The translations under genes were made by a program, and so were the position numbers. DNA of 64,000 nucleotides from Chitinophagales bacterium (lineage in GTDB: Bacteria; Bacteroidota; Bacteroidia; Chitinophagales; UBA10324), in NCBI GenBank assembly GCA_025056305.1, contig JANWWJ010000043.1, positions 62,001 to 126,000 on the forward strand, written 5' to 3'. Below the pieces are notes generated by a model that was not told where the DNA came from, made no database searches, and saw nothing but the letters and a program-made list of their open reading frames with translations. Of the stretch, positions 27,415 to 42,946 are shown piece after piece. Each line of letters opens with the position of its first letter. Within the stretch, counting starts at the first letter, position 1.

Positions 27415-28944
27415 TTAGTCCACACGGTCTTGATCGTGCAAGAAGCGGTTGTTGCGTTTTAACTCTGCAGGCTGGTCTTCGCCCTTGGCTTCTAAAATGT
27501 ATGGGGATTGTGCAGTTTCTGACGAATGAGGAACATCATCAAGTGTTACGTTTCGGCGCACATAAGCAGGTACCCGCTCCATCTCCATAATTTTAGAGGG
27601 ATTCGATAACACGCTTATTGCCCGCAAGGTTGCTTTGCGTCCGGCATTGCAATTGTCCTGCGCACCGTGTTGGCTGCAGGCCCTCTGATTTTTCATTTCC
27701 ATCGTTTCACTGAAGGTCCGCTCGCGCAACACAAAATCGGTGACATCTGCTGAAGCGGAGTGTTCCGCTGGCTCGCGCACCTCTTCTATGGTCAAAGTTG
27801 GTGTTTCAATTTTTGCCGGAGGATCCTCCTCGCCTAACTGAAGCGGGAGCTGATTGTTTTCCGATTTTGTTGGACGTGAGCTGCGCCGCTTTGGCTGCAC
27901 CTCAGAAGGTTGCTTGTCCGCATTTTCTTCAAGCGTAAATACAATCTGATCGGATCGCGTGTTTGCGGCACTGAGCTGGTTGGCCTTAAAGCCGGTGGCA
28001 ATGACCGTAACCATGATTTTTTCACCAAGGCTTTCGTTGAAGCAATTCCCCCAAATCAGGTTCGATTCGTATCCGGCTTCCCGTTGCACATATTCGGTAA
28101 TCTCACTCACTTCATCCAGCGTAACCTCCACCAGTCCGGAGCTGATGTTCACCAAAATGTTGCGCGCACCTCGGATATCGCTGTCGTTCAGCAGTGGCGA
28201 GTTCAAGGCTGCCTGCACTGCCTGCAAGGCACGGTTTTCCCCCTCGGCCGCAGCCATGCCCATAATGGCCACCCCGCTGTTACGCATGACGGTGTTGACG
28301 TCCTCAAAATCCACATTGACGTACCCCGGTACGGTAATGATTTCCGCTATGCTTTTGGCGGCATTGGCCAATATGTTATCGGCCTGTGCAAAAGCAGCAC
28401 TTAAGGTAAGGTTGCCGTAGATTTCCCGAAGTTTTTCATTAGAAATAATTATAAGCGTATCAACATGCTTTTTTAATTCCTCAATCCCCTCACGTGCCTG
28501 CTGATATCGTCTTGGCCCTTCAGCAGAAAATGGCAAGGTTACCAATCCCACGGTCAAAATGTCCAATTCTTTAGCTATTTCGGCGATCACGGGTGCAGCA
28601 CCAGTACCTGTGCCTTTTCCCATACCAGCCGTGATGAACAGCATGCGGGTCTGGTGCGCGAGCAAAGCTTTGATTTCTTCCAACGCTTCGAGTGCCGAAC
28701 GGCGACCGATCTCGGGGTTCATGCCTGCCCCCCGCCCTTCGGTAAGGTTCTTGCCGAGTTGCACCTTGCAGGGCACAGGGCTCATGTTCAGGGCTTGCAG
28801 ATCGGTGTTGGCCACGATAAAATTTACCCCTACAATTCCTTGCCTGTACATGTGGTTGACCGCGTTGCCACCGCCCCCTCCCACACCAATTACCTTGATT
28901 ATGGAATTCGTGTCTATGCCGGGAAGATCAAATTGAATGGCCAT
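27415..28944 (-). CDS. ftsZ: Cell division protein FtsZ
   Basis: Tubulin-like GTPase that forms the division ring. The GTP-binding core spans about residues 1-320: VIGVGGGGGNAVNHM, NTDLQAL, the tubulin signature GMGKGTGTGAAPVIAE, and the T7-loop region NVDFEDVNTVM. A long charged linker of about 120 residues follows, then a conserved tail with RVPAYVRRNVTLDD and the terminal NNRFLHDQDRVD, which resembles the usual ending of Bacteroidota FtsZ. At 509 residues it is long compared with about 380 in E. coli because of the linker. Last gene of the dcw operon, 9 bp after ftsA; convergent with the MORN gene. No clear terminator follows. Confidence 0.98.
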   Translation of the reverse strand: MAIQFDLPGIDTNSIIKVIGVGGGGGNAVNHMYRQGIVGVNFIVANTDLQALNMSPVPCKVQLGKNLTEGRGAGMNPEIGRRSALEALEEIKALLAHQTRMLFITAGMGKGTGTGAAPVIAEIAKELDILTVGLVTLPFSAEGPRRYQQAREGIEELKKHVDTLIIISNEKLREIYGNLTLSAAFAQADNILANAAKSIAEIITVPGYVNVDFEDVNTVMRNSGVAIMGMAAAEGENRALQAVQAALNSPLLNDSDIRGARNILVNISSGLVEVTLDEVSEITEYVQREAGYESNLIWGNCFNESLGEKIMVTVIATGFKANQLSAANTRSDQIVFTLEENADKQPSEVQPKRRSSRPTKSENNQLPLQLGEEDPPAKIETPTLTIEEVREPAEHSASADVTDFVLRERTFSETMEMKNQRACSQHGAQDNCNAGRKATLRAISVLSNPSKIMEMERVPAYVRRNVTLDDVPHSSETAQSPYILEAKGEDQPAELKRNNRFLHDQDRVD

Positions 28945-28953
28945 AAACGTTTC

Positions 28954-30246
28954 TTATTTAGTTTCTATTTCTTCAAGCAAAAAGCTTTTTACCCCCAACA
29001 TGAAGCGGTCCATGAGGCTTTGCAGAAAGCTGCGGTTGTCTTTGTGTTGAGTCTCGACCTGTGTGGCCGTTTTGTGTTGCTCATCATAGTAACGAAAACC
29101 GTTTAACACCAGCCCAACGCAGGTAGCATACATCGGATGCCGCAATTCATCCAAATGAGCAGGTTGATCGGGCGATAGATATTCAGTCGGGATGCCAATG
29201 CGAGTGTCCAGCCCCGTCACATATTCTGCCAATTGAACCAAGTTGGTCAATTGAGCTCCACCGCCGGTAACAACCATGCCGGCTACCAGCTTGTTTTTGT
29301 AGCCGGAAGCCTCAATTTCCGCATCGACCAGTTCCAGAATCTCTTCCATGCGTGCATGTATTATGTTGGCCAGATTTCGCATGGAAATTTCTTTCGGCGG
29401 GCGGCCGCGAATACCAGGAATGGATATGATCTGATTGTCCATGTTTGAAGAAGGAATAGCACTGCCGAAACGACGTTTAAGTTGCTCTGCCTGCTCTCGT
29501 GTAACTCGGCACCCTTCCTGAATATCTTCGGTGATCACGTTGCCGCCGAAGGGGATAACGCAGGTATGTCGAATGATGTTATTATGAAAAATGGCTATGT
29601 CTGTCGTTCCTCCTCCGATATCAACCAAGACCACGCCTGCCTCTTTCTCATCGTCATGCAACACAGCTGCAGAACTGGCCAATGGCTCCAGAATGAGCTC
29701 CTGCATGCGCAGGTTACATTTGTTAATGCAACGCTGAATGTTCTGGGCGGCACTGATCTGACCGGTGATGATGTGAAAGTTGGCTTCCAGGCGAGTGCCG
29801 CACATCCCCACCGGATCGCGGATATCTGGTTCATTGTCCACAAAAAATTCCTGCGGTAACACATGAATAATGCGATCGCCGGGGTTGACCACCAACTTAT
29901 ACATGTCATCGGTAAGCTGCCGGATATCTTCTTCGCTGATTTCGGTTTCTCCGTTTTTTCGGATGAGCACCCCCCTATGTTGCATGCTGCGGATGTGTTG
30001 GCCGGCTATACCCACAAACACTTCGCTGATGTGGACTTTTGAGCTGTCCGATGCCTTGCTTACCGCCCGCTGAATGGATTCAACCGTTCGGTCGATGTTG
30101 GCGATGACACCACGCTGCACCCCCAGCGACTCAGCATGACCCATACCCAAAATCCTCAATTTCCGATCTGCCGTACGCTGGGCAACTATGGCACAAATCT
30201 TCGTCGTGCCTATATCTAAACCTACAACAAAGCGCTCTGAGGTCAT
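28954..30246 (-). CDS. ftsA: Cell division protein FtsA
   Basis: Actin-like ATPase that tethers FtsZ to the membrane and recruits later divisome proteins. Motifs: VVGLDIGTTKICAIV (phosphate 1), the 1C domain with SEVFVGIAGQHIRS, VVLVDIGGGTTDIAIF (phosphate 2), the GGNVITEDI segment and the adenosine motif GMVVTGGGAQL. The C-terminus (FLQSLMDRFMLGVKSFLLEEI) fits an amphipathic membrane-targeting helix. The start overlaps the ftsQ stop by 4 bp and ftsZ follows after 9 bp. Confidence 0.97.
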   Translation of the reverse strand: MTSERFVVGLDIGTTKICAIVAQRTADRKLRILGMGHAESLGVQRGVIANIDRTVESIQRAVSKASDSSKVHISEVFVGIAGQHIRSMQHRGVLIRKNGETEISEEDIRQLTDDMYKLVVNPGDRIIHVLPQEFFVDNEPDIRDPVGMCGTRLEANFHIITGQISAAQNIQRCINKCNLRMQELILEPLASSAAVLHDDEKEAGVVLVDIGGGTTDIAIFHNNIIRHTCVIPFGGNVITEDIQEGCRVTREQAEQLKRRFGSAIPSSNMDNQIISIPGIRGRPPKEISMRNLANIIHARMEEILELVDAEIEASGYKNKLVAGMVVTGGGAQLTNLVQLAEYVTGLDTRIGIPTEYLSPDQPAHLDELRHPMYATCVGLVLNGFRYYDEQHKTATQVETQHKDNRSFLQSLMDRFMLGVKSFLLEEIETK

Positions 30247-31091
30247 AAGTCCGTTTTTGAAGAAGAGGGAGTTTGTACGTTCGAAGCGTCAGCCTGAACG
30301 GTTTCCGTTTTTTCCTGCCCGGCCCGGCGCGTAGCGTAGATCTGATGGCGGAATCGCAGGTCCACGACCGAATACGAGGACCACTTCCCCGATTGCGACA
30401 ACTGTCGGTAGAGCGGCCGCAACTTGCTCAGCTTTTCCTCCAGCTGTTGCGTGTCCCCAATCAAAATGCGGTGCTTACCGTGAAAAGGAATCAGCTCGTA
30501 CTGTCCGGCTTCGTTGCAGTGAATCTGGTCAATAAGGCCGAGCAAAAAAGAATCACGCATCATGTGCTTAACGATTTGAAGTACTTCATATGTAAACAAG
30601 TTCTCATTTTTTAAAGACTGATTTGTACCTGCTCGGGTGGCCACAGGAACCCTTGCGGTAAATTTATCGCTGAGGGGCAGGCGCCGACCTTCTGCATCGA
30701 GGTAGTAACTCACAGTAGGGCTGTTGATTATCCTGATTACGGGAATGGATTGCCGCACATGTACGTGCAGGTGATGTTGCGCGTCGAGGTAAACAAGGCT
30801 CGAATGAATCCATGGTTGTCGGTTGAGGTGTTCTTCCAGTTCAGTCAGCGAAAGTTGGGTCACCGGTGTCCCCCCTTCAAATGCAATATGGCGTGCCTCC
30901 AGCCATTGACGCACGTCGGCTGCATCCACAAATGAAATTTCAGGAGCGCCCACCACATGAACGGTTACTCCGGTGGTTAGGGGTTCAGGCTGGCTCATTG
31001 CAGCCACCCATACCCACACTGTAAGGCCACTCAACAACATGAGCAGTCCGTAACGAAGTCCTAACAAGATTGCGTTGCGATGAATCCTCAT
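30243..31091 (-). CDS. ftsQ: Cell division protein FtsQ/DivIB
   Basis: Bitopic divisome protein of 282 residues. One N-terminal transmembrane helix (LLMLLSGLTVWVWVAAM, about residues 15-32) is followed by a POTRA-like domain (FVDAADVRQWLEA ... LEEHLNRQPWIHSSLVYLDAQHHLHVHVRQ) and a beta domain with SYYLDAEGRRLPLSDKF, typical of Bacteroidota FtsQ. Sequence conservation is low, as usual for the family; position between murC and ftsA with 3-bp and overlapping junctions makes the call firm. The C-terminal tail is charged and low complexity. Confidence 0.93.
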   Translation of the reverse strand: MRIHRNAILLGLRYGLLMLLSGLTVWVWVAAMSQPEPLTTGVTVHVVGAPEISFVDAADVRQWLEARHIAFEGGTPVTQLSLTELEEHLNRQPWIHSSLVYLDAQHHLHVHVRQSIPVIRIINSPTVSYYLDAEGRRLPLSDKFTARVPVATRAGTNQSLKNENLFTYEVLQIVKHMMRDSFLLGLIDQIHCNEAGQYELIPFHGKHRILIGDTQQLEEKLSKLRPLYRQLSQSGKWSSYSVVDLRFRHQIYATRRAGQEKTETVQADASNVQTPSSSKTDL

Positions 31092-31094
31092 GGC

Positions 31095-32450
31095 TTACAA
31101 TTGATCCAGCATTTGAGCCAAAGGCATAACCAGTTCGTCAATATCGCCGGCCCCCACTGTAACCAGAACCTCAGGCGGCTGTTGCCGCAACAGCTCAAAC
31201 AGCTCTTGTTTGGAAGCCAGCATTGCACGGCAACCCGTCAAGTAGCCTAACAATAAAGACGAGTCCACGCCCTCCAGAGGCGCCTCTCGCGCTGCATAAA
31301 TGGGCAAAAGGATTACCCTATCAGCCAGCGAAAGGGCTTTTCCAAAACCTTCCGCAAAGTCCCGAGTGCGTGAATACAGGTGCGGTTGAAACACACAGGT
31401 AATAAGTCGCGGACCGCACAGCTGACGCACCGCACCTAAAAAAGCTTCGATCTCCACCGGATGATGGGCGTAATCATCAATAAACCAATAACGCTCGGTG
31501 CGTCGGATCCATTCAAACCGTCGTTTCACCCCCCTAAATGTTTCTAGGCCTTTTTTGATTTGTTCCGGATTGGCCTCTAAGTACAAGCCTACGGCTACGG
31601 CGGCCACTGCATTTTCTACGTTATAACCGCCCGGCAAAGGCAAGTGTATGTCGCCGATAGTGCCCTTGGACCACGTCACAGCAAATCGCTGCCCGATTTC
31701 TGTGGGTTCAATGTGATGAGCACGCACATCGGCTTCCTGATGAATTCCATAAAAATGAATATTAAAAAAGTTTACATAGGGCAAGAAGGCTAGTCCAGGC
31801 CTTGTGATGAGGACGCCTCCGGCCTTAAGCCGGCTGGCAAAATCGCCGAACGAACGAACTACTTCTTCCGGAGCCTCATAGATATCCAGGTGGTCCGGAT
31901 CACAGGAAGTGACCACGGCAACATCGGGGCGCAGTTTCAAAAAGGAGCGGTCAAATTCATCAGCCTCCACCACGCAAATACCTGACGTTCCATCAAGAAA
32001 ATTAGAATGATAGTTTAAAGCGATACCGCCCAAAAAAGCCATGCAATCGATTCCACAACTTTTGAGCACATGAGCTATCAGAGCAGCGGTCGTGGTCTTT
32101 CCGTGTGTGCCGGCTATGGCAATGGTGAACAGCTCGGCAGTAATAAGCTGAAGCACTTCAGCCCGTTTGAGCACTGGATAACCCCGCTGTTGATAATAAA
32201 CCAACTCTGCATGATCCGATGGAATTGCCGGCGTATATACCACCAGTTGGGCATCGCTCATAATCCGACTGATGTCTTCTTCGTAATGAATGGATATCCC
32301 TTCTCGCTCCAATTGAGCTGTTAGTAGGGTTGGGGTTCTGTCGTAACCGGTAACGGTTGCTCCTCGGGCGTGGAAATAGCGAGCCAGGGCACTCATACCA
32401 ATACCGCCGATGCCCAGAAATGCCACCCGTCGCACGTCATGCACATTCAT
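31095..32450 (-). CDS. murC: UDP-N-acetylmuramate--L-alanine ligase
   Basis: Adds L-Ala to UDP-MurNAc, the first step of the peptidoglycan stem peptide. A full-length Mur ligase of 451 residues: N-terminal Rossmann VAFLGIGGIGMSALARYFHARG, the ATP P-loop AGTHGKTTTAALI, the VVEADEFDRSFLKLRPDVAVVTSCDPDHLD segment and the C-terminal DDYAHHPVEIEAFL. Start overlaps the murG stop by 4 bp; ftsQ follows after 3 bp. Confidence 0.98.
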   Translation of the reverse strand: MNVHDVRRVAFLGIGGIGMSALARYFHARGATVTGYDRTPTLLTAQLEREGISIHYEEDISRIMSDAQLVVYTPAIPSDHAELVYYQQRGYPVLKRAEVLQLITAELFTIAIAGTHGKTTTAALIAHVLKSCGIDCMAFLGGIALNYHSNFLDGTSGICVVEADEFDRSFLKLRPDVAVVTSCDPDHLDIYEAPEEVVRSFGDFASRLKAGGVLITRPGLAFLPYVNFFNIHFYGIHQEADVRAHHIEPTEIGQRFAVTWSKGTIGDIHLPLPGGYNVENAVAAVAVGLYLEANPEQIKKGLETFRGVKRRFEWIRRTERYWFIDDYAHHPVEIEAFLGAVRQLCGPRLITCVFQPHLYSRTRDFAEGFGKALSLADRVILLPIYAAREAPLEGVDSSLLLGYLTGCRAMLASKQELFELLRQQPPEVLVTVGAGDIDELVMPLAQMLDQL

Positions 32451-33568
32451 GAGATAAAAGCAGATTTTTTGTTTACCAGTTCAAGTATTTCCGTCGCCAA
32501 GGCCTGGTGGGCATGCGGGCGCGCCAGGGTTGAAATGTTTTGACTGAGGCGATGGCGTGTGGGTTCATCGCGCATCAACTTCAGGATGTTATCTACAAGC
32601 AGTTGGGGTGCCTCGGCATCGGCTATAAGGACGGCGGCTCCGTGGCGTGCCAGCTCCTCTGCATTTCGTCGCTGATGATCTTCGGCCACATGGGGTGAAG
32701 GAACCAGCACGGCAGCTTTGGCCGTAACGCTCAGCTCGGCCAGAGCCAGCGCTCCGGCACGAGATACCACTAAGTCCGCGGCAGCGTAGGCAGCAGCCAT
32801 GTCGTTGACAAACGGCAAAATCCGTAAGCGCTGGGGTGCCTTTTTTTCATATAAACGAAACTGTTCATAATAAATTTTTCCCGTTTGCCACAAAATTTGA
32901 AACCCGGCCTCCAGCAGACGGTCTATTCCCTCGGCTATGCTTTGATTGATGGATGCCGCACCCAGACTTCCCCCCACCACCAACACCACCGGCACATCGG
33001 CACGAAATCCAAACACCTCTCGAGCCTGCGCTGTGGAGGGCAATTGCAGCAACTCCTGCCGTACCGGATTACCTGTCAGAACGATTTTATGGCGCGGGAA
33101 AAACCGTTCCATACCCTCGTAGGCCACACAGACTTTTCTCACCCATCGGCCTAAAAGCCGATTGGCGAGTCCGGCGTAAGAGTTTTGTTCGTGGATCAAC
33201 GTTGGAATACCGAGCAACACTGCCATCAGCAAAACCGGAAAGCTGGCATAGCCACCCACCCCAATCACGACATGAGGCCGAAACTGCCGCATCAACGCCA
33301 AAGCCTTCCAGCAGCTTGCCAGCAGTTTGAAAGGCAACAGAAAATTTTGCATATCGAACTTTCGCTGTAGCCCCGCTATTGGCAAGCCCACAATTCGGTA
33401 GCCGGCGGCGGGCACGACTTGCATTTCTAAGCGCCCTCGTGCTCCTACAAAGAGCAATTCGGCCTTAGGCTCCTTCTGCTGCAGGGCCTTTGCTATGGCT
33501 AAGGCCGGAAAGACATGACCGCCAGTGCCGCCTCCGCTAATCATTATTCTGATCGGTTGATGCCCCAT
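32447..33568 (-). CDS. murG: UDP-GlcNAc:undecaprenyl-PP-MurNAc-pentapeptide transferase
   Basis: GT28 glycosyltransferase that makes lipid II at the cytoplasmic face of the membrane. Motifs: RIMISGGGTGGHVFPALAIA, GVGGYASFPVLLMA, HEQNSYAGLANRLL, VVGGSLGAASIN, and the UDP-GlcNAc site VSRAGALALAEL. The annotated start lies inside ftsW with a 32-bp overlap; a Met at residue 9 (33544) would still overlap by 8 bp. murC overlaps downstream by 4 bp. Confidence 0.98.
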   Translation of the reverse strand: MGHQPIRIMISGGGTGGHVFPALAIAKALQQKEPKAELLFVGARGRLEMQVVPAAGYRIVGLPIAGLQRKFDMQNFLLPFKLLASCWKALALMRQFRPHVVIGVGGYASFPVLLMAVLLGIPTLIHEQNSYAGLANRLLGRWVRKVCVAYEGMERFFPRHKIVLTGNPVRQELLQLPSTAQAREVFGFRADVPVVLVVGGSLGAASINQSIAEGIDRLLEAGFQILWQTGKIYYEQFRLYEKKAPQRLRILPFVNDMAAAYAAADLVVSRAGALALAELSVTAKAAVLVPSPHVAEDHQRRNAEELARHGAAVLIADAEAPQLLVDNILKLMRDEPTRHRLSQNISTLARPHAHQALATEILELVNKKSAFIS

Positions 33569-34706
33569 GGTCTTGCTCCGTGCTTCGGCTTACACTCAAA
33601 ATGATTCCAACGGCCAGACTCGTAAACAAGGTAGAGGTACCCCCCATGCTGATCAATGGTAGAGTTACCCCGGTGGTGGGCAGCAGATCGACAACCACAG
33701 CCATGTTGATCAGTGCCTGCACCACAATTGCCAGGCCAAGCCCAAGGGCCAGATATGCCCCAAACAATCCCTGAGCCATACGCGCTACGCGAATACTTCG
33801 CAACAACAAAAACAAATACAAAACCACCAAAGCCATCCCTCCGATGAGGCCGTATTCTTCAACAATAATTGCATATATGAAATCTGAATATGGGCTGGGC
33901 AAAAAGTTGCGTTGAATGCTGTTGCCTGGGCCGGTTCCGAAAATGCCTCCATGCGCAATTGCAATCTTAGCCTGTTGGACCTGATAGGGCTCATGCTCCT
34001 GATCCGCAAAGGCTGCCAGCCTACTGCTCCAGGTTTCTACCCGTGTGGAAAAGGGTGTAAGCCGATCTAGGAGGACCAACACGCTCAGCAGCGATATTGC
34101 CAACAACACCAGGGCTGTTAGATAGCGAATCGGCACTTGCCCGATAAACATGAGAAATAAACATGTGGCCAGCAAAATGGCTGCGGTAGAAAAATTACTG
34201 GGTGCAATTAGGCCGCAGATCAAGAGTACCGGCGCCCCGATGGGTAAAAATCCATGCCGAAACTCATGCAAGTGATCTTTCTTAATCACCAGCATTCGGG
34301 CTATGTACATGATGAGCGCCAGCCGTGCTAAGTCAGAAGTTTGAAACGACAGGTCAACGACCGGTACCGACAGCCATCTGCGTGCTTCGTTGATTTCCTG
34401 GCCGAAAAACAGGGTAAGGATCAACAACGGTACCGAAACAAAAAGAAGCATTTGAGCCAAGCGGGAATAGTAGCCATAAGGAATACGGTGTGCCACATAT
34501 ATTATCAAAAGGCTAATACCAATGATAAGCCCTTGCCGGAGCAGGTAATACTGCACGTTTCCGCCCTGCACGCGGAAAGCCAGCGTGCCGGTAGAACTAT
34601 ACACGGCCAGCATAGAAACTAAAAACAAAAAGATAACCACCAGCCATATGTAGCGGTCTCCGCTGGTGTATCGAAATACCTCTTTAACCGATTGGTCGAG
34701 CTTCAT
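33537..34706 (-). CDS. ftsW: Septal peptidoglycan glycosyltransferase FtsW
   Basis: SEDS-family membrane glycosyltransferase that polymerises lipid II at the septum together with FtsI. About ten hydrophobic helices in 389 residues. Family markers: the first-helix region LFLVSMLAVYSST, the RRWLSVPVVDLSFQTSDLARLALI segment, the large extracellular loop with GPGNSIQRNFLPSPYSDFIYAIIVEEYGLIGG, and the C-terminal LLPTTGVTLPLISMGGTS. Position between murD and murG in the dcw cluster supports FtsW rather than RodA. Confidence 0.97.
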   Translation of the reverse strand: MKLDQSVKEVFRYTSGDRYIWLVVIFLFLVSMLAVYSSTGTLAFRVQGGNVQYYLLRQGLIIGISLLIIYVAHRIPYGYYSRLAQMLLFVSVPLLILTLFFGQEINEARRWLSVPVVDLSFQTSDLARLALIMYIARMLVIKKDHLHEFRHGFLPIGAPVLLICGLIAPSNFSTAAILLATCLFLMFIGQVPIRYLTALVLLAISLLSVLVLLDRLTPFSTRVETWSSRLAAFADQEHEPYQVQQAKIAIAHGGIFGTGPGNSIQRNFLPSPYSDFIYAIIVEEYGLIGGMALVVLYLFLLLRSIRVARMAQGLFGAYLALGLGLAIVVQALINMAVVVDLLPTTGVTLPLISMGGTSTLFTSLAVGIILSVSRSTEQDHGASTDQNND

Positions 34707-34715
34707 GGGCTGGAG

Positions 34716-36047
34716 TTACAGATCGCGCACACATTCCTTGAATTGGCGTCCCCGTTCTTCGTAGTTTTCAAACAAGTCAAAACTGGCGCATGCAGGGGAA
34801 AGCAGCACGCAGTCACCAGGGGCCGCTAGATGGAAAGCGGCTTTAACGGCGTCTCTCATGTTGTTGGTATTGACGATTAAGTCTACACTGTTGCTGAAGG
34901 CTTCGTGCAGTTTACGATTGTCCACCCCCAAGCACACCAACGCTTTAACCTTTCTGCGTACCAGATCCGTAAGCATACTGTAATCATTTCCCTTATCCAC
35001 CCCACCGGCAATCCAGATAATGGGTTTGTTGATGCTTTCCAAAGCATACCAAGTAGCATTTACACTGGTCGCTTTGGAATCATTGATGAACTCCACGCCT
35101 TTGATGTCAGCAACCCATTCGAGACGGTGTTCCAACGACCTGAAGTCGCTCAGTGCCTCCCGAATCAGGTCGTTTTTGATGTCAAACAGCCGCGCGACAA
35201 TGCCGGCGGCCATGGAGTTGTACACATTGTGTTTACCCCGTAATCCAAGTTTTGGTACTGGCATGGTGAAGGAATTTTGGTTTAGAGAAAAAACTATTTG
35301 ATCGTGGTGCAGCCAGGCTCCCTGGCTCAATGTTTTTTCTTGCGAAAAAGCAAGGCATTGGGCCTTTACCTGATGACGTTCCAGGCCCGCCCGGGTTTCG
35401 GCATCATCGGCACAATAGATCAAATAATCCGATGCGTCCTGTGCTTGCGTGATCCGAAACTTGGTGTCGGCATAGCGCTGCATGCTGTATTCGTACCGAT
35501 CCAGATGATTGGGTGTGATGTTGGTGATGACGGCCACCCATGGCTTGAATGCATAACAATCTTCCAATTGAAAGCTGCTGACCTCTGCTACATAACAGGC
35601 CGCCTCGCGTTCGGCAAGCTGGCCGGCAAAGCTTTTACCAATGTTGCCGACCAAAGCGACATCCATGCCGCTTCGTTGCAGCAGGTGCCACGTGAGCGTT
35701 GCAGTGGTTGACTTGCCGTTCGTTCCCGTAATGGCTACGACAGGGGCGCGTGTGTGCTGCGCAGCAAATTCTATTTCGGAAATGATCGGTATTCCCTGTT
35801 GGCGCAACGCAGCCAACACTGGGGAGTTGGGTGCTATGCCCGGACTTTTGATGATTAAATCCGCGCCAAGCATGCGGCTTAGATCGTGTTGGCCCTCTTC
35901 AAAGGGGATGCCGGCTTGCAGCAGCTGCTGGCGCCGCTGAGGGCGAAGGCTGCCGCTGTCGCTCACCAGCACCTCATGACCAAGCTTTTTTGCCAGCAAG
36001 GCAGCTCCAAGGCCACTTTCTCCTGCTCCGATCACTACCACGTTCAT
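34716..36047 (-). CDS. murD: UDP-N-acetylmuramoyl-L-alanine--D-glutamate ligase
   Basis: Adds D-Glu to UDP-MurNAc-L-Ala. 443 residues with the N-terminal VVIGAGESGLGAALLAKKLG, the P-loop ITGTNGKSTTATL, the NITPNHLDRYEYSM segment and the C-terminal FINDSKATSVNATWYAL and IAGGVDKGNDY. The ATG overlaps the stop of the small basic ORF by 4 bp (ATGA), so its translation is probably coupled to that ORF instead of directly to mraY. ftsW follows after 9 bp. Confidence 0.98.
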   Translation of the reverse strand: MNVVVIGAGESGLGAALLAKKLGHEVLVSDSGSLRPQRRQQLLQAGIPFEEGQHDLSRMLGADLIIKSPGIAPNSPVLAALRQQGIPIISEIEFAAQHTRAPVVAITGTNGKSTTATLTWHLLQRSGMDVALVGNIGKSFAGQLAEREAACYVAEVSSFQLEDCYAFKPWVAVITNITPNHLDRYEYSMQRYADTKFRITQAQDASDYLIYCADDAETRAGLERHQVKAQCLAFSQEKTLSQGAWLHHDQIVFSLNQNSFTMPVPKLGLRGKHNVYNSMAAGIVARLFDIKNDLIREALSDFRSLEHRLEWVADIKGVEFINDSKATSVNATWYALESINKPIIWIAGGVDKGNDYSMLTDLVRRKVKALVCLGVDNRKLHEAFSNSVDLIVNTNNMRDAVKAAFHLAAPGDCVLLSPACASFDLFENYEERGRQFKECVRDL

Positions 36048-36226
36048 GCTTTCACCCAGATTAGGGTATTATCCTTAGGTTGTGTTTTTCTGCGAAGGCG
36101 CGCCTTGACAAGTTGGACCTGCTTCTTGCGCCAGCGGTTCAGCCGTCGGCGCGTACGACGAATCAACTTAGCCCGTTGCCGCTCGCTGAGCAGGATCCAG
36201 TTCTGCCATTCAAGACGCCCCATCAT
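36044..36226 (-). CDS. Small strongly basic protein encoded between mraY and murD
   Basis: A 60-codon ORF hidden in the ORF track inside a longer 178-codon frame that overlaps mraY and is not credible. The real start is set by the junctions: the mraY stop TAA shares its last A with the ATG (TAATG), and the stop overlaps the murD start (ATGA). Such double coupling is the same style as the other dcw junctions. The product (starting [10 protein letters not shown]) has about 20 Arg/Lys against three acidic residues, including a RRTRRRLNRWRKK core, and no membrane helix or signal peptide. I do not recognise a family. RNA, ribosome or anionic-membrane binding is possible from charge alone. It could also be a non-functional coupling ORF that carries ribosomes to murD. 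Confidence 0.7.
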   Translation of the reverse strand: MMGRLEWQNWILLSERQRAKLIRRTRRRLNRWRKKQVQLVKARLRRKTQPKDNTLIWVKA

Positions 36227-37470
36227 TAACGAATTTTTAATGTAACTAACGTTAATACCGCCAATAGCATTCCGACGATCCAAAAACGCGTTACGATTTT
36301 CGGCTCGGGATACCCCAACACCTGATAATGATGATGCAGCGGGGCCATGCGAAAAACCCGTCTGCCTGCGCCGTACCGCCAGCGCGTGTACTTGAAGTAG
36401 GCAACTTGGATGATCACCGACAGATTTTCGATTAAAAAGATGCCGCACAGCAACGGCAATAACAGTTCCTTCCGTACCGTAATAGCCAGCGTGGCAATGA
36501 TGCCGCCCAGAGCCAATGAGCCCGTATCGCCCATGAATACCTGAGCCGGATAGGCATTGTACCATAAGAATCCAACACAAGCCCCGATAAAAGCAGCCGA
36601 AAAAACCAGCAACTCACCACTGTTGGGGATATACATGATGTTCAGATAGTCGGCCAACAGAATATTGCCTGATACGTATGCAAAAATTCCTAAAGTTGCA
36701 CCGGCAATGGCTGAAACACCGGTAGCCAGCCCGTCCATGCCATCGGTGATGTTGGCAGCATTTGAAACGGCGGTGATGATGATGACTACAATTAAAATAT
36801 ATACCACCCACGTGTACCGTTCCCATTCGCGGTTGATCCAGCTCAGCAACCTGCCATAGTTGAATTCATGGTTCTTTACGAAGGGAATGGTCGTGATGGG
36901 CAGTTTAGCATCCACGTATTGTGCGGTTGCTTTCTCTACGGGCGAGAGCAGTAGCTCTTCCTGAGGAGGTTGCTGCGCGTGCACCAACGGCCGACGTACC
37001 ACTACGTCGGAATGGAAATACAAAATGGAACCCACAAGAATTCCCAGGGTAATTTGTCCAAACAACTTCGACCACGCCGTAAGACCTCTTTTATTCTTTT
37101 TAAAAACTTTAATATAATCGTCAACAAAACCGATTAATCCACACCAGAGGGTTGTCGCCAGCAGCAACAACACATAGATGTTGTGAAGTTTGGCAAACAA
37201 GAGGGTAGGAATAAGGATGGCCGCCAGTATTATCAGCCCGCCCATAGTTGGGGTTCCTTCTTTTTCCATCTGCCCCTGAAGGCCGAGATCCCGAATGCTT
37301 TCACCCACTTGTTTGCGCCGCAAAACCTTCAACATCCATTTGCCAAAAAACAGGCCTATGAGCAACGAAAGAATGATGGCCATGCCCGCCCGAAAGGAGA
37401 TGAACCCAAACAAGCCGGCCCCCGGCAGATCGAAACGCTCATCCAAAAACTCAAACAAATAGTACAACAT
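36226..37470 (-). CDS. mraY: Phospho-N-acetylmuramoyl-pentapeptide transferase
   Basis: Integral membrane enzyme that makes lipid I from UDP-MurNAc-pentapeptide and undecaprenyl phosphate. About ten helices; motifs [36 protein letters not shown] (catalytic Asp pair), [22 protein letters not shown] and the HHHYQ of MAPLHHHYQ. At 414 residues it exceeds the E. coli protein (360), mainly through an extra hydrophilic segment of about 55 residues ([12 protein letters not shown] ... [10 protein letters not shown]) between helices, as is common in Bacteroidota. murE ends 17 bp upstream; the next small ORF overlaps the stop by one base. Confidence 0.98.
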
Positions 37471-37487
37471 CGCCTAAGCCAATTCGG

Positions 37488-38960
37488 TCAACTGTTGATC
37501 TTGATTTGTTCCAAAGCTTTTTTCAGTTCCTCACGATCGTCGAACGGGTAGCGAGTGCCAGCAATCTCTTGGTATTTCTCATGGCCTTTGCCGGCCACGA
37601 GTACCACATCTTTAGCTGCACCCAATGCCACTGCCGTACGTATGGCCTCCCTGCGGTTCACCACCGTCAGCACTTTTCCGACAGCCTCAGCCGGTACACC
37701 TTTCATCATCTCTTCGATAATGAACTGAGGGTCTTCGTAGCGTGGATTATCTGCAGTGAAGATGGCCCGATCAGCCAACAGGGCAACGGCGCGACCCATT
37801 AGTGGCCGTTTCTGCCGATCGCGGTTGCCCCCACAACCCACTACCGCTAGCAGCTGTGCCTCTTCATACATCAGTTGCCGCAACGTGCGCAATACTTGCT
37901 CCAAAGCATCAGGTGTGTGGGCATAGTCAACCACACCGGTTAGCTCATTGCCCGGCACTCGAATCACCTGCAGGCGACCTTCCACCGGCGCCAATAGGCT
38001 CATTGCCTGCAGTACAACTTCTCGTTCAGCACCCAGCAGCCGGGCTGTGGCATACACCGCCAACAAATTGGAGGCATTAAAGGCCCCGATTAGCCGCAGA
38101 TGTACTTCCTGACCTTCCAGTAACACCACCATGCCATGCAACGATTGTTCTAAGAGGCGAAGCCGGAAGTCAGCCATCCCTTGAATTGCGTAGGTGTACA
38201 CCTTAGCGCGCGTGTTTTGAACCATGACCCGGCTTCGCACATCATCCGCATTTACCAGCGCGAAAGCATTCGCAGGCAATGCATCGAACAACTTCTTCTT
38301 GGCTTTTATATATGCATCAAAAGTTTTGTGATAGTCCAAATGATCATGAGAAATGTTGGTGAAAATGCCTCCGGCAAATCGAAGACCTGCTGTGCGCTGT
38401 TGATCCAGGGCATGCGAGCTGGCTTCCATGAAACAGTAGGTACATCCCTCTTTGTGCATGAGATGCAGCAGTTGGCTCAGGGTAACGGCGGCCGGCGTCG
38501 TGTGGGTCGCTTCCAACGTTGTGGCACCAATGCGATTTTCTACTGTGGAAATAAGCCCACAGCGAAAGCCAAGAGCAGTAAACAGGTGATACAACAGTGT
38601 TGCTACGGTGGTTTTACCGTTGGTGCCTGTTACGGCAACGATTTTGAGTTTTTGAGAAGGGAAATCATAAAATGCTTCTGCAATATGTGCCAGGGCTTGT
38701 GCAGCCGATGGCACCTGAACATACGTCACGTGATCGTAGCGGCATTCCGGCATTACTTCACAGACAATGGCTACAGCTCCAGCAGCCGTCGCTGCATCGA
38801 TAAACTTGTGGCCATCCGTGGTGTGGCCGGGTATTGCTGCAAACAGCCAACCTTGCTGCACTTGTCGTGAATCGTCGGTAATGGCCTCAATCCATACCGT
38901 GTCGCTGCCTTCAACACGAAGAGGCCGCACCGCCTTTAACAACTCACTGAGCTGTTTCAT
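37488..38960 (-). CDS. murE: UDP-N-acetylmuramoylalanyl-D-glutamate--diaminopimelate ligase
   Basis: Adds the third stem-peptide residue. 490 residues; visible are DDSRQVQQGWLFAAI (uridine site), the P-loop VTGTNGKTTVATLLYH, the TTPAAVTLSQLLHLM segment, EASSHALDQQRTAGL, FTNISHDHLDYH, and VVGCGGNRDRQKRPLMG. The C-terminal TADNPRYEDPQFIIEEM contains the DNPR motif that marks meso-diaminopimelate-specific enzymes, so the organism's peptidoglycan is probably DAP-type. The start overlaps the ftsI stop by 4 bp. Confidence 0.98.
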   Translation of the reverse strand: MKQLSELLKAVRPLRVEGSDTVWIEAITDDSRQVQQGWLFAAIPGHTTDGHKFIDAATAAGAVAIVCEVMPECRYDHVTYVQVPSAAQALAHIAEAFYDFPSQKLKIVAVTGTNGKTTVATLLYHLFTALGFRCGLISTVENRIGATTLEATHTTPAAVTLSQLLHLMHKEGCTYCFMEASSHALDQQRTAGLRFAGGIFTNISHDHLDYHKTFDAYIKAKKKLFDALPANAFALVNADDVRSRVMVQNTRAKVYTYAIQGMADFRLRLLEQSLHGMVVLLEGQEVHLRLIGAFNASNLLAVYATARLLGAEREVVLQAMSLLAPVEGRLQVIRVPGNELTGVVDYAHTPDALEQVLRTLRQLMYEEAQLLAVVGCGGNRDRQKRPLMGRAVALLADRAIFTADNPRYEDPQFIIEEMMKGVPAEAVGKVLTVVNRREAIRTAVALGAAKDVVLVAGKGHEKYQEIAGTRYPFDDREELKKALEQIKINS

Positions 38961-41071
38961 GGTTGGAGCTGCAATTCAAGGTTTACAACCTGACCGGCAC
39001 GCCAAGACGTTGCTGGTGGTGGCTGCTGTTGCACCACAATGCCCAAACCTGATGCCTGAACCCTGTAACCAGCCGACTCTAAGACATAGATGGCATTCCG
39101 CAAGCCAAGGCCGCGTACGTCCGGCACCTTGTTTGCCTCGCTCTCCGAACCACTCGGCTTAATGCCCTGTTCAGGGTCAATAGAAACCCATACATCAGTA
39201 CTTGAGGGCATCACTGGAACATTCAAAGCGGATAACACTTTGCCCACATCCCCTGCATGGGCTTTGACCACCAAAGGCAACTGCACAGGCGTTTTAACAC
39301 TGTCAACCGGCGCAGGCTGTCGAAAGAACAGTTCAGCAGCATAGATCCGGTCAGCTATTTCCCGGAAAACAGGCGCGGCAACCTGTGATCCGTAGTAGCG
39401 ACCCGCTGAAGGTTGATGGATCATCACGATCATGGTATATTGCGGATCGTCGGCAGGGAAATAGCCCACAAAGGATGCGACGTAGCGGCGCTCATCGTAA
39501 CCGCCGTACGCATCAGCCAACAAAGCGGTTCCCGTCTTACCGGCAATCTTATAAGAGGAATGTTTAATGTTTTTTGCCGTTCCAGCTTCGACCACTGCTT
39601 CCAGGGAAGCACGCAGAGCACGCAAGGTTGCTTCTTTACAGATCGGTGTTGGCATGACGAGTGTCTGATGCTGCTTTTTGACTTGACCGAACGATTCGGT
39701 CCGCTCCAGCAAATGCGGCTGGACCCATCGGCCGTCGTTGGCAATGGCATTGTAAAAGCACAACAGCTGCAAAGGCGTCAACTTTAGCTCATACCCTACT
39801 GACATCCAGGGCAGACTATACTGGCTGAACGAACGATCGGCTGCTGACTTGATGAATGGCCATGGCTCACCTGGTAAATCAATGCCAGTCGGCTTATCCA
39901 AGCCTATTCGACGTAAATGAGCAATAAAGCGTTCGGGCTGGTGCCGATAATATTGTGCGATCAGTTTAGATATTCCCACATTTGAAGAGAGGGCAAAAGC
40001 CTTGAGCACATCCACCTTGCGGTGGTCATGAGCTTCTGCATCGCGCATGATCTGACTTCCAAATACATGCGTACCGTAGTTAAGGTCCACACTGTCGTGC
40101 AAGCGCACATAACCGTCTTCCAACAGTACGAGCAATGAAGCAAGCTTAAAGGTGGAACCCGGCTCCTGGCTCTCAGCGATGGCATAGTTATAGTCTTCGA
40201 CATAAGTGCCGTCGGCCTGCCGACTTAAATTGACCATGGCCCGGATGGCACCGCTGCGTGTTTCCATGAGCACCACACAACCGTGGTGCGCTTGATGCGC
40301 AGCCAGTGCCCGCTCCAGAGCGCTTTCTGCGATATCCTGTAGCGTCACATTGATGGTAATGACAACATCTTGACCGTTGACAGGGTCTATTTCGTTCTTG
40401 TCGGTAATGGGCAAAACTTGTCCTCCACCAACCTTTTTCACCAGCCGTTTGCCCGGTTGCCCTTTGAGGAATTCATGGTACTGAGCCTCCAAACCCACCG
40501 GCTGAACACTGGCATCGCGGACATAGCCTATGGTGCGTTGAGCCAGTCGTCGGTACGGATACATCCGCTTGTGCTGGGTGACCACAATAAGTCCGCCCTT
40601 ATACTGACCCAATCGAAAAATGGGAAACGTGCGCAGTTGCTGCAGCTGGCTATAGGTTACATTTTTTTTGATGAGAAGGTAGCGTTCACCGCGTTGCCTT
40701 GCCTGAATCAACAGCTTGCGATAAGCAGCCGCGCTGCGGTCCTGAAACAGCTGGGCCAACAGGCGACTGAGCGAGTCCACCCCGGACTGAAATACCGCTG
40801 AGGTGAGTCCATCTGCCTTCAGGTCCATGCGGATCTCGAAGACGGGAACCGTTGTGGCCAACAAACGGCCATCGGCAGAATAGATGTTTCCGCGCTGCGC
40901 CGGAACGGTCACATAACGGGTGATCACACTGTCCAAGAGCGCGAGGTACTCAGGGCCCTCCACCTGCTGCAGATAAATCAGCCGCCCACCAATGGCAATG
41001 GCGCCCAGGGCCAACAGCACATAGATCAATGCCGCACGCCACGTCCATTGATGGTTAAGAGCTTGAGTCAT
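38957..41071 (-). CDS. ftsI: Septal penicillin-binding transpeptidase FtsI/PBP3 with PASTA domain
   Basis: Class B penicillin-binding protein of 704 residues, anchored by one N-terminal helix (AALIYVLLALGAIAIGGRLIYL) and acting in the periplasm with FtsW. The PBP dimerisation domain is followed by the transpeptidase domain with SxxK in EPGSTFKLAS, SxN in SSNVGISKL, and KTG in AGKTGTALLADAYGG. The C-terminus carries one PASTA domain (VPDVRGLGLRNAIYVLESAGYRVQ ...), a frequent addition in Bacteroidota FtsI but absent in E. coli. Start overlaps the FtsL-like gene by 4 bp and murE overlaps the end by 4 bp. Confidence 0.97.
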   Translation of the reverse strand: MTQALNHQWTWRAALIYVLLALGAIAIGGRLIYLQQVEGPEYLALLDSVITRYVTVPAQRGNIYSADGRLLATTVPVFEIRMDLKADGLTSAVFQSGVDSLSRLLAQLFQDRSAAAYRKLLIQARQRGERYLLIKKNVTYSQLQQLRTFPIFRLGQYKGGLIVVTQHKRMYPYRRLAQRTIGYVRDASVQPVGLEAQYHEFLKGQPGKRLVKKVGGGQVLPITDKNEIDPVNGQDVVITINVTLQDIAESALERALAAHQAHHGCVVLMETRSGAIRAMVNLSRQADGTYVEDYNYAIAESQEPGSTFKLASLLVLLEDGYVRLHDSVDLNYGTHVFGSQIMRDAEAHDHRKVDVLKAFALSSNVGISKLIAQYYRHQPERFIAHLRRIGLDKPTGIDLPGEPWPFIKSAADRSFSQYSLPWMSVGYELKLTPLQLLCFYNAIANDGRWVQPHLLERTESFGQVKKQHQTLVMPTPICKEATLRALRASLEAVVEAGTAKNIKHSSYKIAGKTGTALLADAYGGYDERRYVASFVGYFPADDPQYTMIVMIHQPSAGRYYGSQVAAPVFREIADRIYAAELFFRQPAPVDSVKTPVQLPLVVKAHAGDVGKVLSALNVPVMPSSTDVWVSIDPEQGIKPSGSESEANKVPDVRGLGLRNAIYVLESAGYRVQASGLGIVVQQQPPPATSWRAGQVVNLELQLQP

Positions 41072-41457
41072 GGCTCGCGAAGCAATTGGGGAGGTTCAAG
41101 GGTTTCCCTGAGGCCCATAGGTGCTGCTAACCGCACAATCTGCGACTGACGCATTAGATTGTCCCATTCAGCTTTTTGTACCGTATAGGCCCAGTTGAGT
41201 TCTTCCAACTTTTTCTCGAGGGCATGCAACTTTCGTAAATGCGCTTCGGCCAAATGGGCATTGCCGATATACAACAATCCCAGCAGGGTCAGCAACAACA
41301 ACAAAGGCAACTGCTCCACAAGCGTTTCATGATGTACCCATTGGCTGAGATCCAGCCAGCGCAACAGACCCCGACGTCGCCGCCCGGTGTGCTGCATCTT
41401 AACATCCCTTACACCAGCAGCATTTGACATTTGGGTTTGCGTTTGGTCACTGGCCAT
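41068..41457 (-). CDS. ftsL: FtsL-like cell division protein
   Basis: A 129-residue bitopic protein in the canonical ftsL position between rsmH and ftsI. A basic cytoplasmic tail of about 50 residues (RRRRGLLRWLDLSQW) precedes one transmembrane helix (QLPLLLLLTLLGLLYIGNAHLAEAH), then a helical, leucine-rich coiled-coil stretch (LRKLHALEKKLEELNWAYTVQKAEWDNL). Primary-sequence similarity between FtsL proteins is low, so the call rests on topology and position; it fits the FtsL-like family known in Bacteroidota. It is 2 bp after rsmH and overlaps ftsI by 4 bp. Confidence 0.88.
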   Translation of the reverse strand: MASDQTQTQMSNAAGVRDVKMQHTGRRRRGLLRWLDLSQWVHHETLVEQLPLLLLLTLLGLLYIGNAHLAEAHLRKLHALEKKLEELNWAYTVQKAEWDNLMRQSQIVRLAAPMGLRETLEPPQLLREP

Positions 41458-41459
41458 AG

Positions 41460-42377
41460 CTATCGTTTTTCAGCAATACGCAGACGAGCGCTTCGTGCCC
41501 GCGGATTGTTCGCCCGTTCGCCAGCCGAGGGCACTACCACGCGCCGCGTGATCAGTCGAAAAGGCCTCTGCTCTTTACCTGACTTGTCACTGACTATATC
41601 CACTTCCCCCGTATGCATGAACCTTTTTACTATACGATCTTCTAACGAGTGATATGAAATAACCACGAGCCTACCTCCCGACCGCAGGACCTCCAGCGTT
41701 TGCAACAAAAACTCCTTTAATGCTTCCAGCTCGTCATTAACCGCTATGCGCAGGGCTTGAAATGCTTGCGCATAATACCGGTGTGGATTGCCTCTGACAC
41801 AACGCCGCAGGATTTCCATGAAATCAGCCACCGATTGTATCGGCCGGTGTTGACGGCGCCGTACTATGGCACGCGCCAACGTGCGCGCATTGCGCACTTC
41901 TCCATACCGACTGAAGACGGCATGCAGCTGTTCTTCCGTGCTTTGGGCCAACAGTGCTGCTGCCGTCAAAGGGGTTTGGCGGCTCATGCGCAGATCCAGC
42001 GGCCCATTCCATCGGTAACTGAAGCCGCGTTGCGCGTCGGACAGCTGCATCGAAGAAACTCCCAGATCTGCCAGTACGCCGTCCACAACAACGACATTTA
42101 GATAGCGCAGCATACGTCGCAGATATCGAAAGTTTTGATGTACCAGCGTGAGCCGATCATCGGCAATCTTATACCGACCGGTGTCCTCATCTTGATCAAA
42201 AGCAATGACGCGACCGCCTTGCAGCCGGCGCAGTAATTCCCGCGTGTGCCCACCGCTGCCGTAGGTAGCGTCCACATAAATGCCACCCGCCTTTAGCGCT
42301 AACCCTTCCATGCATTCTTCCAACAGGACTGGCGTGTGTGCTTCCATCCGACTCATCTGTTTTTGGCCGGTTACCAT
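41460..42377 (-). CDS. rsmH: 16S rRNA (cytosine(1402)-N(4))-methyltransferase
   Basis: SAM-dependent methyltransferase acting on C1402 of 16S rRNA (MraW). Motifs: HTPVLLEECMEGL, the SAM-binding YVDATYGSGGHTRELLRRL, GVLADLGVSSMQLSDAQRGFSY, LDLRMSRQTPLTAAALL, and the C-terminal SYHSLEDRIVKRFM. 305 residues from the first Met; Met8 or Met11 (42356, 42347) would give the more typical start just before the HTPVLL motif and would remove the 7-bp overlap with mraZ. Confidence 0.97.
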   Translation of the reverse strand: MVTGQKQMSRMEAHTPVLLEECMEGLALKAGGIYVDATYGSGGHTRELLRRLQGGRVIAFDQDEDTGRYKIADDRLTLVHQNFRYLRRMLRYLNVVVVDGVLADLGVSSMQLSDAQRGFSYRWNGPLDLRMSRQTPLTAAALLAQSTEEQLHAVFSRYGEVRNARTLARAIVRRRQHRPIQSVADFMEILRRCVRGNPHRYYAQAFQALRIAVNDELEALKEFLLQTLEVLRSGGRLVVISYHSLEDRIVKRFMHTGEVDIVSDKSGKEQRPFRLITRRVVVPSAGERANNPRARSARLRIAEKR

Positions 42378-42835
42378 TCAAACGTCAATCCTCCCAAAAC
42401 TTTCTGAATCTTTTTCTGCATGCCAACCACATTTCTTTTACGATACGCATAAAAGGTTTTTTCATCCCATAACTCAATTCGATTGAGATAGGCCTTGATC
42501 AACATGTCTTTATGAATGCCGGCGTATTGCAACAGGTTTTTCGGGATCATGATGCGCCCGGAGCCATCAATGCTCACGCGGGTAGCCCCGTCAAAAAGAA
42601 ATCGTAATGCATCCAGGTTTTCCTGATTAAAATGGGAGATGCGCCGCACCGTCTTACTTAAGATTTCCCAGTCATGAATGGGATACATCACCAAGCATTT
42701 ATCCGTCGAGCGTAACAGCATAAACGTATTGCGTGCTTTGGCTGGAATCTGCTTACGCAGTTGAGCCGGAAACAGAAATCGATTCTTACTGTCCAAGGTT
42801 ACCGGGTATTCTCCAGTAAAATCCGCCTTGCTCAT
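42371..42835 (-). CDS. mraZ: Transcriptional regulator MraZ
   Basis: First gene of the dcw operon. A 154-residue protein with two SpoVT-AbrB-like domains: FTGEYPVTLDSKNRFLFPAQLRKQIP (about 5-30) and FDGATRVSIDGSGRIMIPKNLLQYAGI (about 75-102), the arrangement of MraZ. In E. coli MraZ represses its own promoter by binding evenly spaced direct repeats; three 10-bp-spaced repeats lie 35-58 bp upstream of this gene. It is slightly longer than usual owing to a C-terminal extension. The ATG lies 16 bp after a perfect -7 element. Confidence 0.97.
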   Translation of the reverse strand: MSKADFTGEYPVTLDSKNRFLFPAQLRKQIPAKARNTFMLLRSTDKCLVMYPIHDWEILSKTVRRISHFNQENLDALRFLFDGATRVSIDGSGRIMIPKNLLQYAGIHKDMLIKAYLNRIELWDEKTFYAYRKRNVVGMQKKIQKVLGGLTFEW

Positions 42836-42851
42836 GAAGCCAAAGCCGTCT

Positions 42852-42859
42852 CAAATGTA
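42852..42859 (-). promoter_or_regulatory. -7 promoter element of the dcw operon (TACATTTG)
   Basis: Exact TAnnTTTG on the minus strand, 16 bp before the mraZ ATG. The expected -33 region overlaps the GTGT repeats and has no TTG, so the promoter may be intrinsically weak. Confidence 0.6.
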
Positions 42860-42863
42860 AACG

Positions 42864-42893
42864 TTTTTTACACTTTTTTACACTTTTTGACAC
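42864..42893 (-). promoter_or_regulatory. Putative MraZ operator: three GTGT repeats at 10-bp spacing
   Basis: On the minus strand the sequence reads GTGTcaaaaa-GTGTaaaaaa-GTGTaaaaaa. The last two copies match the AAAGTG[T/G]N3 direct repeat described for MraZ of mollicutes, and the 10-bp period equals that of the E. coli TGGGN sites. The repeats cover the -18 to -45 zone of the predicted promoter, a position suited to repression. Inference; not tested. Confidence 0.65.
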
Positions 42894-42946
42894 ATTTGTG
42901 GAAAAAATTTTTTGTGCACCTCATCACGAAGTGCCACCCAATACCC

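Follow-up and report, generated by a model that had tools for sequence, protein, structure and literature searches.

What controls the dcw operon of this Chitinophagales bacterium, and is MraZ the only protein likely to act there? The question is raised by the mraZ promoter in the stretch of DNA analysed here (all 64 kb of it, hereafter the window), in which the first-pass annotation had pointed to three GTGT repeats at 10-bp spacing upstream of the -7 box of mraZ, with coordinates that are right to the base. An element absent from that annotation is a DnaA-box-like 9-mer situated 3 bp upstream of the repeat array. The features with which the discussion is concerned are as follows, with promoter positions given relative to the predicted transcription start:

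42897..42905, minus strand: DnaA-box-like 9-mer TTTTCCACA, which fits TTWTNCACA, with its centre near -54 (-58 to -50)
42890..42893, minus strand: predicted MraZ repeat core 1, GTGT in the sequence (predicted -46 to -43)
42880..42883, minus strand: predicted MraZ repeat core 2, GTGT in the sequence (predicted -36 to -33)
42870..42873, minus strand: predicted MraZ repeat core 3, GTGT in the sequence (predicted -26 to -23)
42852..42859, minus strand: -7 box TACATTTG, from the Bacteroidota primary sigma consensus TAnnTTTG
42371..42835, minus strand: mraZ, 154 aa, two MraZ domains (PF02381, E=1.6e-27; NCBIfam TIGR00242 above cut-off)
41460..42377, minus strand: rsmH (mraW), overlapping the end of mraZ (Pfam PF01795)
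38957..41457, minus strand: an ftsL-like gene and a PASTA-domain division transpeptidase of the ftsI type (Pfam)
27415..38960, minus strand: the remaining dcw cluster in the same direction, as open reading frames: murE, mraY, murD, ftsW, murG, murC, ftsQ, ftsA and ftsZ

Read on the minus strand, the elements run TTTTCCACA-AAT-GTGTCAAAAA-GTGTAAAAAA-GTGTAAAAAACGTT-TACATTTG-16 nt-ATG, the stretch upstream of mraZ ending ...TTTTTTCCACAAATGTGTCAAAAAGTGTAAAAAAGTGTAAAAAACGTTTACATTTGAGACGGCTTTGGCTTC-ATG with the ATG at 42835. The gene is the first of an intact dcw cluster that reaches ftsZ at 27415; the names of ftsA and ftsZ were given by NCBIfam family match, and those of murE, mraY, murD, ftsW, murG, murC and ftsQ were assigned from the sequences. 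The encoded MraZ retains the conserved D15-K17-R19 and D90-R94, its closest named relative (88% identity) belongs to a Chitinophagales MAG, and recent structures of MraZ can be found in the PDB (9qlg, 9r4j, 9sx6, 9sz7, 9qlr). MraZ is present in 14/16 genomes of the family, 144/150 of the order and 282/297 of the phylum. The profile search gave no match in 9/9 sampled genomes of one Bacteroidota family (f42, e.g. G176, G206 and G246), which can be read as either loss or strong divergence.

In this phylum TAnnTTTG has been described as the primary -7 box (PMC9723704, PMC7366714), lying at -12 to -5 (PMC9723704). With the box of the window placed at -12 to -5, transcription is predicted to start near 42847, the leader would be about 12 nt in length, and the repeats would occupy -46 to -23. 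A TAnnTTT[G/A] box 8-13 nt past the last repeat is found in 90 of 162 relatives. Scanning the mraZ promoter for sigma-70 -35/-10 elements gave no match, as expected for the phylum, and the -33 TTTG element is absent from its expected place.

The first-pass annotation had proposed the repeats as a likely MraZ operator and had named conservation upstream of orthologous mraZ genes as the means of checking it; when this comparison was carried out, the repeats were found to be conserved across the phylum. A collection of 205 distinct regions upstream of Bacteroidota mraZ genes was reduced to 164 non-redundant ones, of which 149 contain pairs of GTG[G/T] at 10 bp, against a mean of 1.9 and a maximum of 6 in dinucleotide shuffles, and 113 contain triplets (mean 0.03, maximum 1), the opposite strand of the same regions yielding 4 pairs and 0 triplets. 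Over the full range of spacings counted, 4-41 bp, the excess is at 10 bp (149) and 20 bp (123), with a small tail at 30 and no other spacing above 23. The 10-bp unit is WWGTG[G/T]KAAAWW, with G in 82% and T in 18% of the Bacteroidota copies; the contrast that the annotation had drawn between a TGGGN type in E. coli and an AAAGTG[T/G] type in mollicutes does not hold for the sequences themselves, as E. coli K-12 too has the GTG[G/T] core at 10 bp, in GTGGgaaattGTGGggcaaaGTGG upstream of mraZ. The sequence flanking the repeats is not conserved among relatives.

As the spacers are A-rich with a 10-bp period, it might be supposed that the repeats are phased A-tracts, forming curved, UP-like promoter DNA and no protein operator. 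However, the GTGK arrays exceed shuffles in which dinucleotide content was kept, some relatives have T-rich spacers and intact cores (e.g. GTGTtattttGTGT), and the same cores are present in the E. coli and mollicute MraZ sites; we regard the A-tract explanation as very improbable. Given that GTG[G/T] pairs and triplets are conserved far above shuffles, we read the three repeats as an MraZ operator in its GTGT form. At least three GTG[G/T] direct repeats stand at 10 bp, they are positioned at the mraZ/dcw promoter, and they are conserved at orthologues; by every one of these sequence criteria the assignment is almost certainly correct.

The mraZ array is the only GTG[G/T] triplet with 10-bp spacing in the window. 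Throughout the 2.41-Mb genome the triplet pattern has two matches (mraZ and one unrelated place), and the reversed control pattern also has two; as such, little can be concluded from the spacing pattern by itself, and it is the position at mraZ together with conservation that carries the argument. Further MraZ targets in the genome were considered and rejected, the single other pattern match not being above the reversed control.

Variation in the repeats and in MraZ itself may be recorded here. In other Bacteroidota classes (L162-L192) the MraZ repeats are of the GTGGGGAAAA type, often in two copies and often downstream of a -35-like CTTGACTTT, a layout unlike that of class Bacteroidia. Codon 18 of MraZ (window 42782-42784) specifies a residue in the D-x-K-x-R loop, and 4/4 all-GTGT operators are accompanied by a non-Gly residue at this position (N, N, S, Q), as in the DNKNR of mollicute MraZ. 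As three of these four belong to a single clade, and as GTGT is missing in the case of four non-Gly proteins, this is only a hint that residue 18 is a possible specificity residue for GTGG/GTGT.

When all 9-mers in the 60-bp stretch preceding the array were counted and ranked without bias, the leading entries were TTATCAACA (23), TTTTCCACA (21), TTATTAACA (16), TTTTCAACA (15) and TTATCCACA (13), which are the DnaA-box series and its variants, the remaining top entries being shifted copies and A/T runs. A match to TTWTYMACA lies no more than 60 bp from the array in 91/162 regions, compared with 3.4 in shuffles and 2.4% of stretches further upstream, and the strict form TTWTNCACA in 43/162 compared with 1.7 in shuffles. 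By class, 89/131 Bacteroidia and 2/31 members of other classes carry TTWTYMACA. Since TTWTCCACA was first noticed in some 14 loci, and TTWTYMACA was fixed after many upstream sequences had been viewed, the count at mraZ is partly post hoc; guards against this bias are provided by a control of 2000 permuted patterns (mean 2.0, best 39, a near-copy of TTWTYMACA, against the observed 91) and by the later tests at dnaA and ftsZ, in which the fixed pattern was used. The raw counts are also inflated by relatedness, as only 29/66 clusters at 60% MraZ identity have the box.

The box is met in both orientations relative to the repeats. Direct boxes mostly end 1-4 bp ahead of repeat 1, and the gaps of inverted boxes cluster at 5-8, 17-18 and 27-28 bp, about one helical turn apart, with phasing of R=0.78 at 10.5-11 bp (60%-identity clusters). 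In class Bacteroidia, then, the box is conserved at the mraZ promoter with constrained geometry. There is no box in about one-third of the class Bacteroidia promoters or in nearly all of those from other classes, so it is dispensable for MraZ control. Within the genome of the window the mraZ box is a single copy, and TTWTCCACA is not enriched genome-wide (52 matches versus 50 reversed).

It could be argued that MraZ accounts for the upstream 9-mer as well, either as part of its footprint or as an inverted, out-of-register half-site, so that the region would be an MraZ operator only. CCAC, the complement of GTGG, does lie inside TTTTCCACA and TTATCCACA, MraZ repeats being GTGG/GTGT, and the repeats of E. 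coli stand without a box. Nevertheless, the common variants TTATCAACA and TTATTAACA have no CCAC, and the distance between an inverted GTGG and repeat 1 would be approximately 14, 25 or 36 bp, none of them a multiple of 10. Furthermore, the same 9-mers are present in dnaA promoters; they also occur in promoters of ftsZ, where the stretches inspected have no 10-bp GTGK array. We judge it quite unlikely that MraZ alone explains the 9-mer.

The reading that we favor is a site for DnaA. TTWTYMACA occurs in 13/27 dnaA promoters (2.0 in shuffles), with 19 boxes compared to 1.9, as would be expected for DnaA autoregulation; the dnaA promoter of the window's own genome has no box. In the DnaA of this genome both GGRDHSTVIHSC, the signature of domain IV, and the ARQ arginine are retained, and Ser stands where the DHTT motif of the E. 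coli protein has its first Thr. At position 6, where A is common, TTATCAACA and TTATTAACA do not match the textbook box, and the textbook box may not be that of Bacteroidota DnaA, a point that would also suit an MraZ operator accompanied by a site for some other division-gene regulator that reads TTWTYMACA. We think such a regulator unlikely, as the strict TTWTNCACA alone is enriched about 25-fold, and as the 9-mers mark dnaA promoters too, in the manner of DnaA autoregulation. Binding of TTTTCCACA by DnaA is, on the strength of these patterns, quite probable.

The same boxes recur at ftsZ in one family of Bacteroidia; among named organisms, those nearest to it by MraZ are Solitalea, Sphingobacteriaceae MAGs and Acidiluteibacter. 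At least one box is present in 27/33 ftsZ promoters of this family, at least two in 25/33 and at least three in 21/33, against 1.8 genomes with at least one and 0.03 with at least two in shuffles. The array, comprising three to four 9-mers some 75-140 bp upstream of ftsZ (L291, L302-L305, L350-L377), has a fixed layout of two direct boxes and then one or two inverted ones, with start-to-start distances of 18-19, about 20 and 13 bp. A box was found in 0/21 ftsZ promoters from other sampled families, and the ftsZ promoter of the window has none. In a 400-kb stretch of one ftsZ-array genome, a box lies within 150 bp of only 15/310 ORFs, and no cluster of at least three boxes exists other than the one at ftsZ.

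That this cluster might be oriC was also considered. The oriC of the phylum is usually far from dnaA (PMC4755523). The sign of the GC skew is unchanged at ftsZ in the 400 kb of this one genome, the nearest local dip being 60-80 kb away, and this, together with the cluster being the sole one of its size in the stretch, makes an origin at ftsZ unlikely. A search for oriC by GC skew, through whole-chromosome sampling of another genome in which the skew is weak, did not locate it. Elsewhere, a box-pair scan of nine whole genomes gave seven matches, of which one fell in an mraZ promoter and one, in a different genome, between ftsA and ftsZ; it was the latter that led to the ftsZ arrays. In G005, a same-family genome, a type III glutamine synthetase gene is immediately preceded by two DnaA-box 9-mers (L273:1501-1531), and in G226 a long intergenic stretch beside an HGSNAT-like gene contains three boxes (L276:1416-1531) and may represent an origin or else a site of regulation.

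In light of the above, the dcw operon is probably governed by a composite region at 42905-42852 on the minus strand, in which an MraZ operator is joined by a DnaA box. With each helical turn contacted by one subunit on the same face of the DNA, an MraZ octamer lying over -46 to -23 would bar the sigma factor from the -33 zone; since sigma access would be blocked in this way, mraZ and the genes downstream would be repressed. DnaA, at -58 to -50, would bind beside MraZ on a fixed helical face, and its level or nucleotide state could adjust dcw transcription. MraZ binding and repression, DnaA binding to the 9-mer and the direction of the DnaA effect are what we infer from the DNA, and an activator position for DnaA at about -54/-57/-68/-79 is a guess. 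An effect of DnaA on dcw expression has, on the sequences, roughly even chances, and we hold in equal balance the broader proposal that across class Bacteroidia DnaA directly controls dcw beside MraZ, and that in one family its control extends to ftsZ via the three-to-four-box array. If true, replication initiation would be tied to division at the level of transcription; the adjoining box suggests that the expression of cell-division genes may be set in part by DNA replication. Both the box present class-wide at the dcw promoter and the one-family ftsZ arrays provide point mutations that are directly testable in tractable Bacteroidia.

By its repeats, the predicted MraZ operator spans Bacteroidota, and MraZ autoregulation of dcw is itself of a kind already known. 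The view of the first-pass annotation that such an operator is little studied in the phylum is borne out in the open-access literature, to which our search extended, as no report was found there; the same literature yielded no earlier report of a DnaA box at mraZ.

With respect to known systems, the likeness to E. coli K-12 is in the three GTGG cores, spaced by exactly 10 bp, that precede its mraZ. The E. coli copies, GTGG in form where those of the window are GTGT, begin at -44, -34 and -24 relative to the start codon and are presumably downstream of the transcription start, whereas the repeats of the window overlap the -33 zone; moreover, E. coli has no DnaA box in the 200 bp upstream of mraZ and the window has one. 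The mollicute site resembles that of the window in core, spacing and GTGT form, the DNKNR loop of its MraZ resembling the DSKNR of the window, and to our knowledge no DnaA box has been described at the mollicute operator. The E. coli boxes upstream of mraZ are those of Eraso et al. 2014, as given in PMC8475190, and the mollicute site, (AAAGTGKN3)x3, is that of Fisunov et al. 2016, as cited in PMC5282649. DnaA sites at cell-division promoters have precedents at ftsL in B. subtilis and at ftsZ in C. crescentus (reviewed in PMC8203912), although these are other genes in other phyla, with a box and no MraZ operator; the new part of the arrangement described here is the DnaA box adjoining the MraZ operator.
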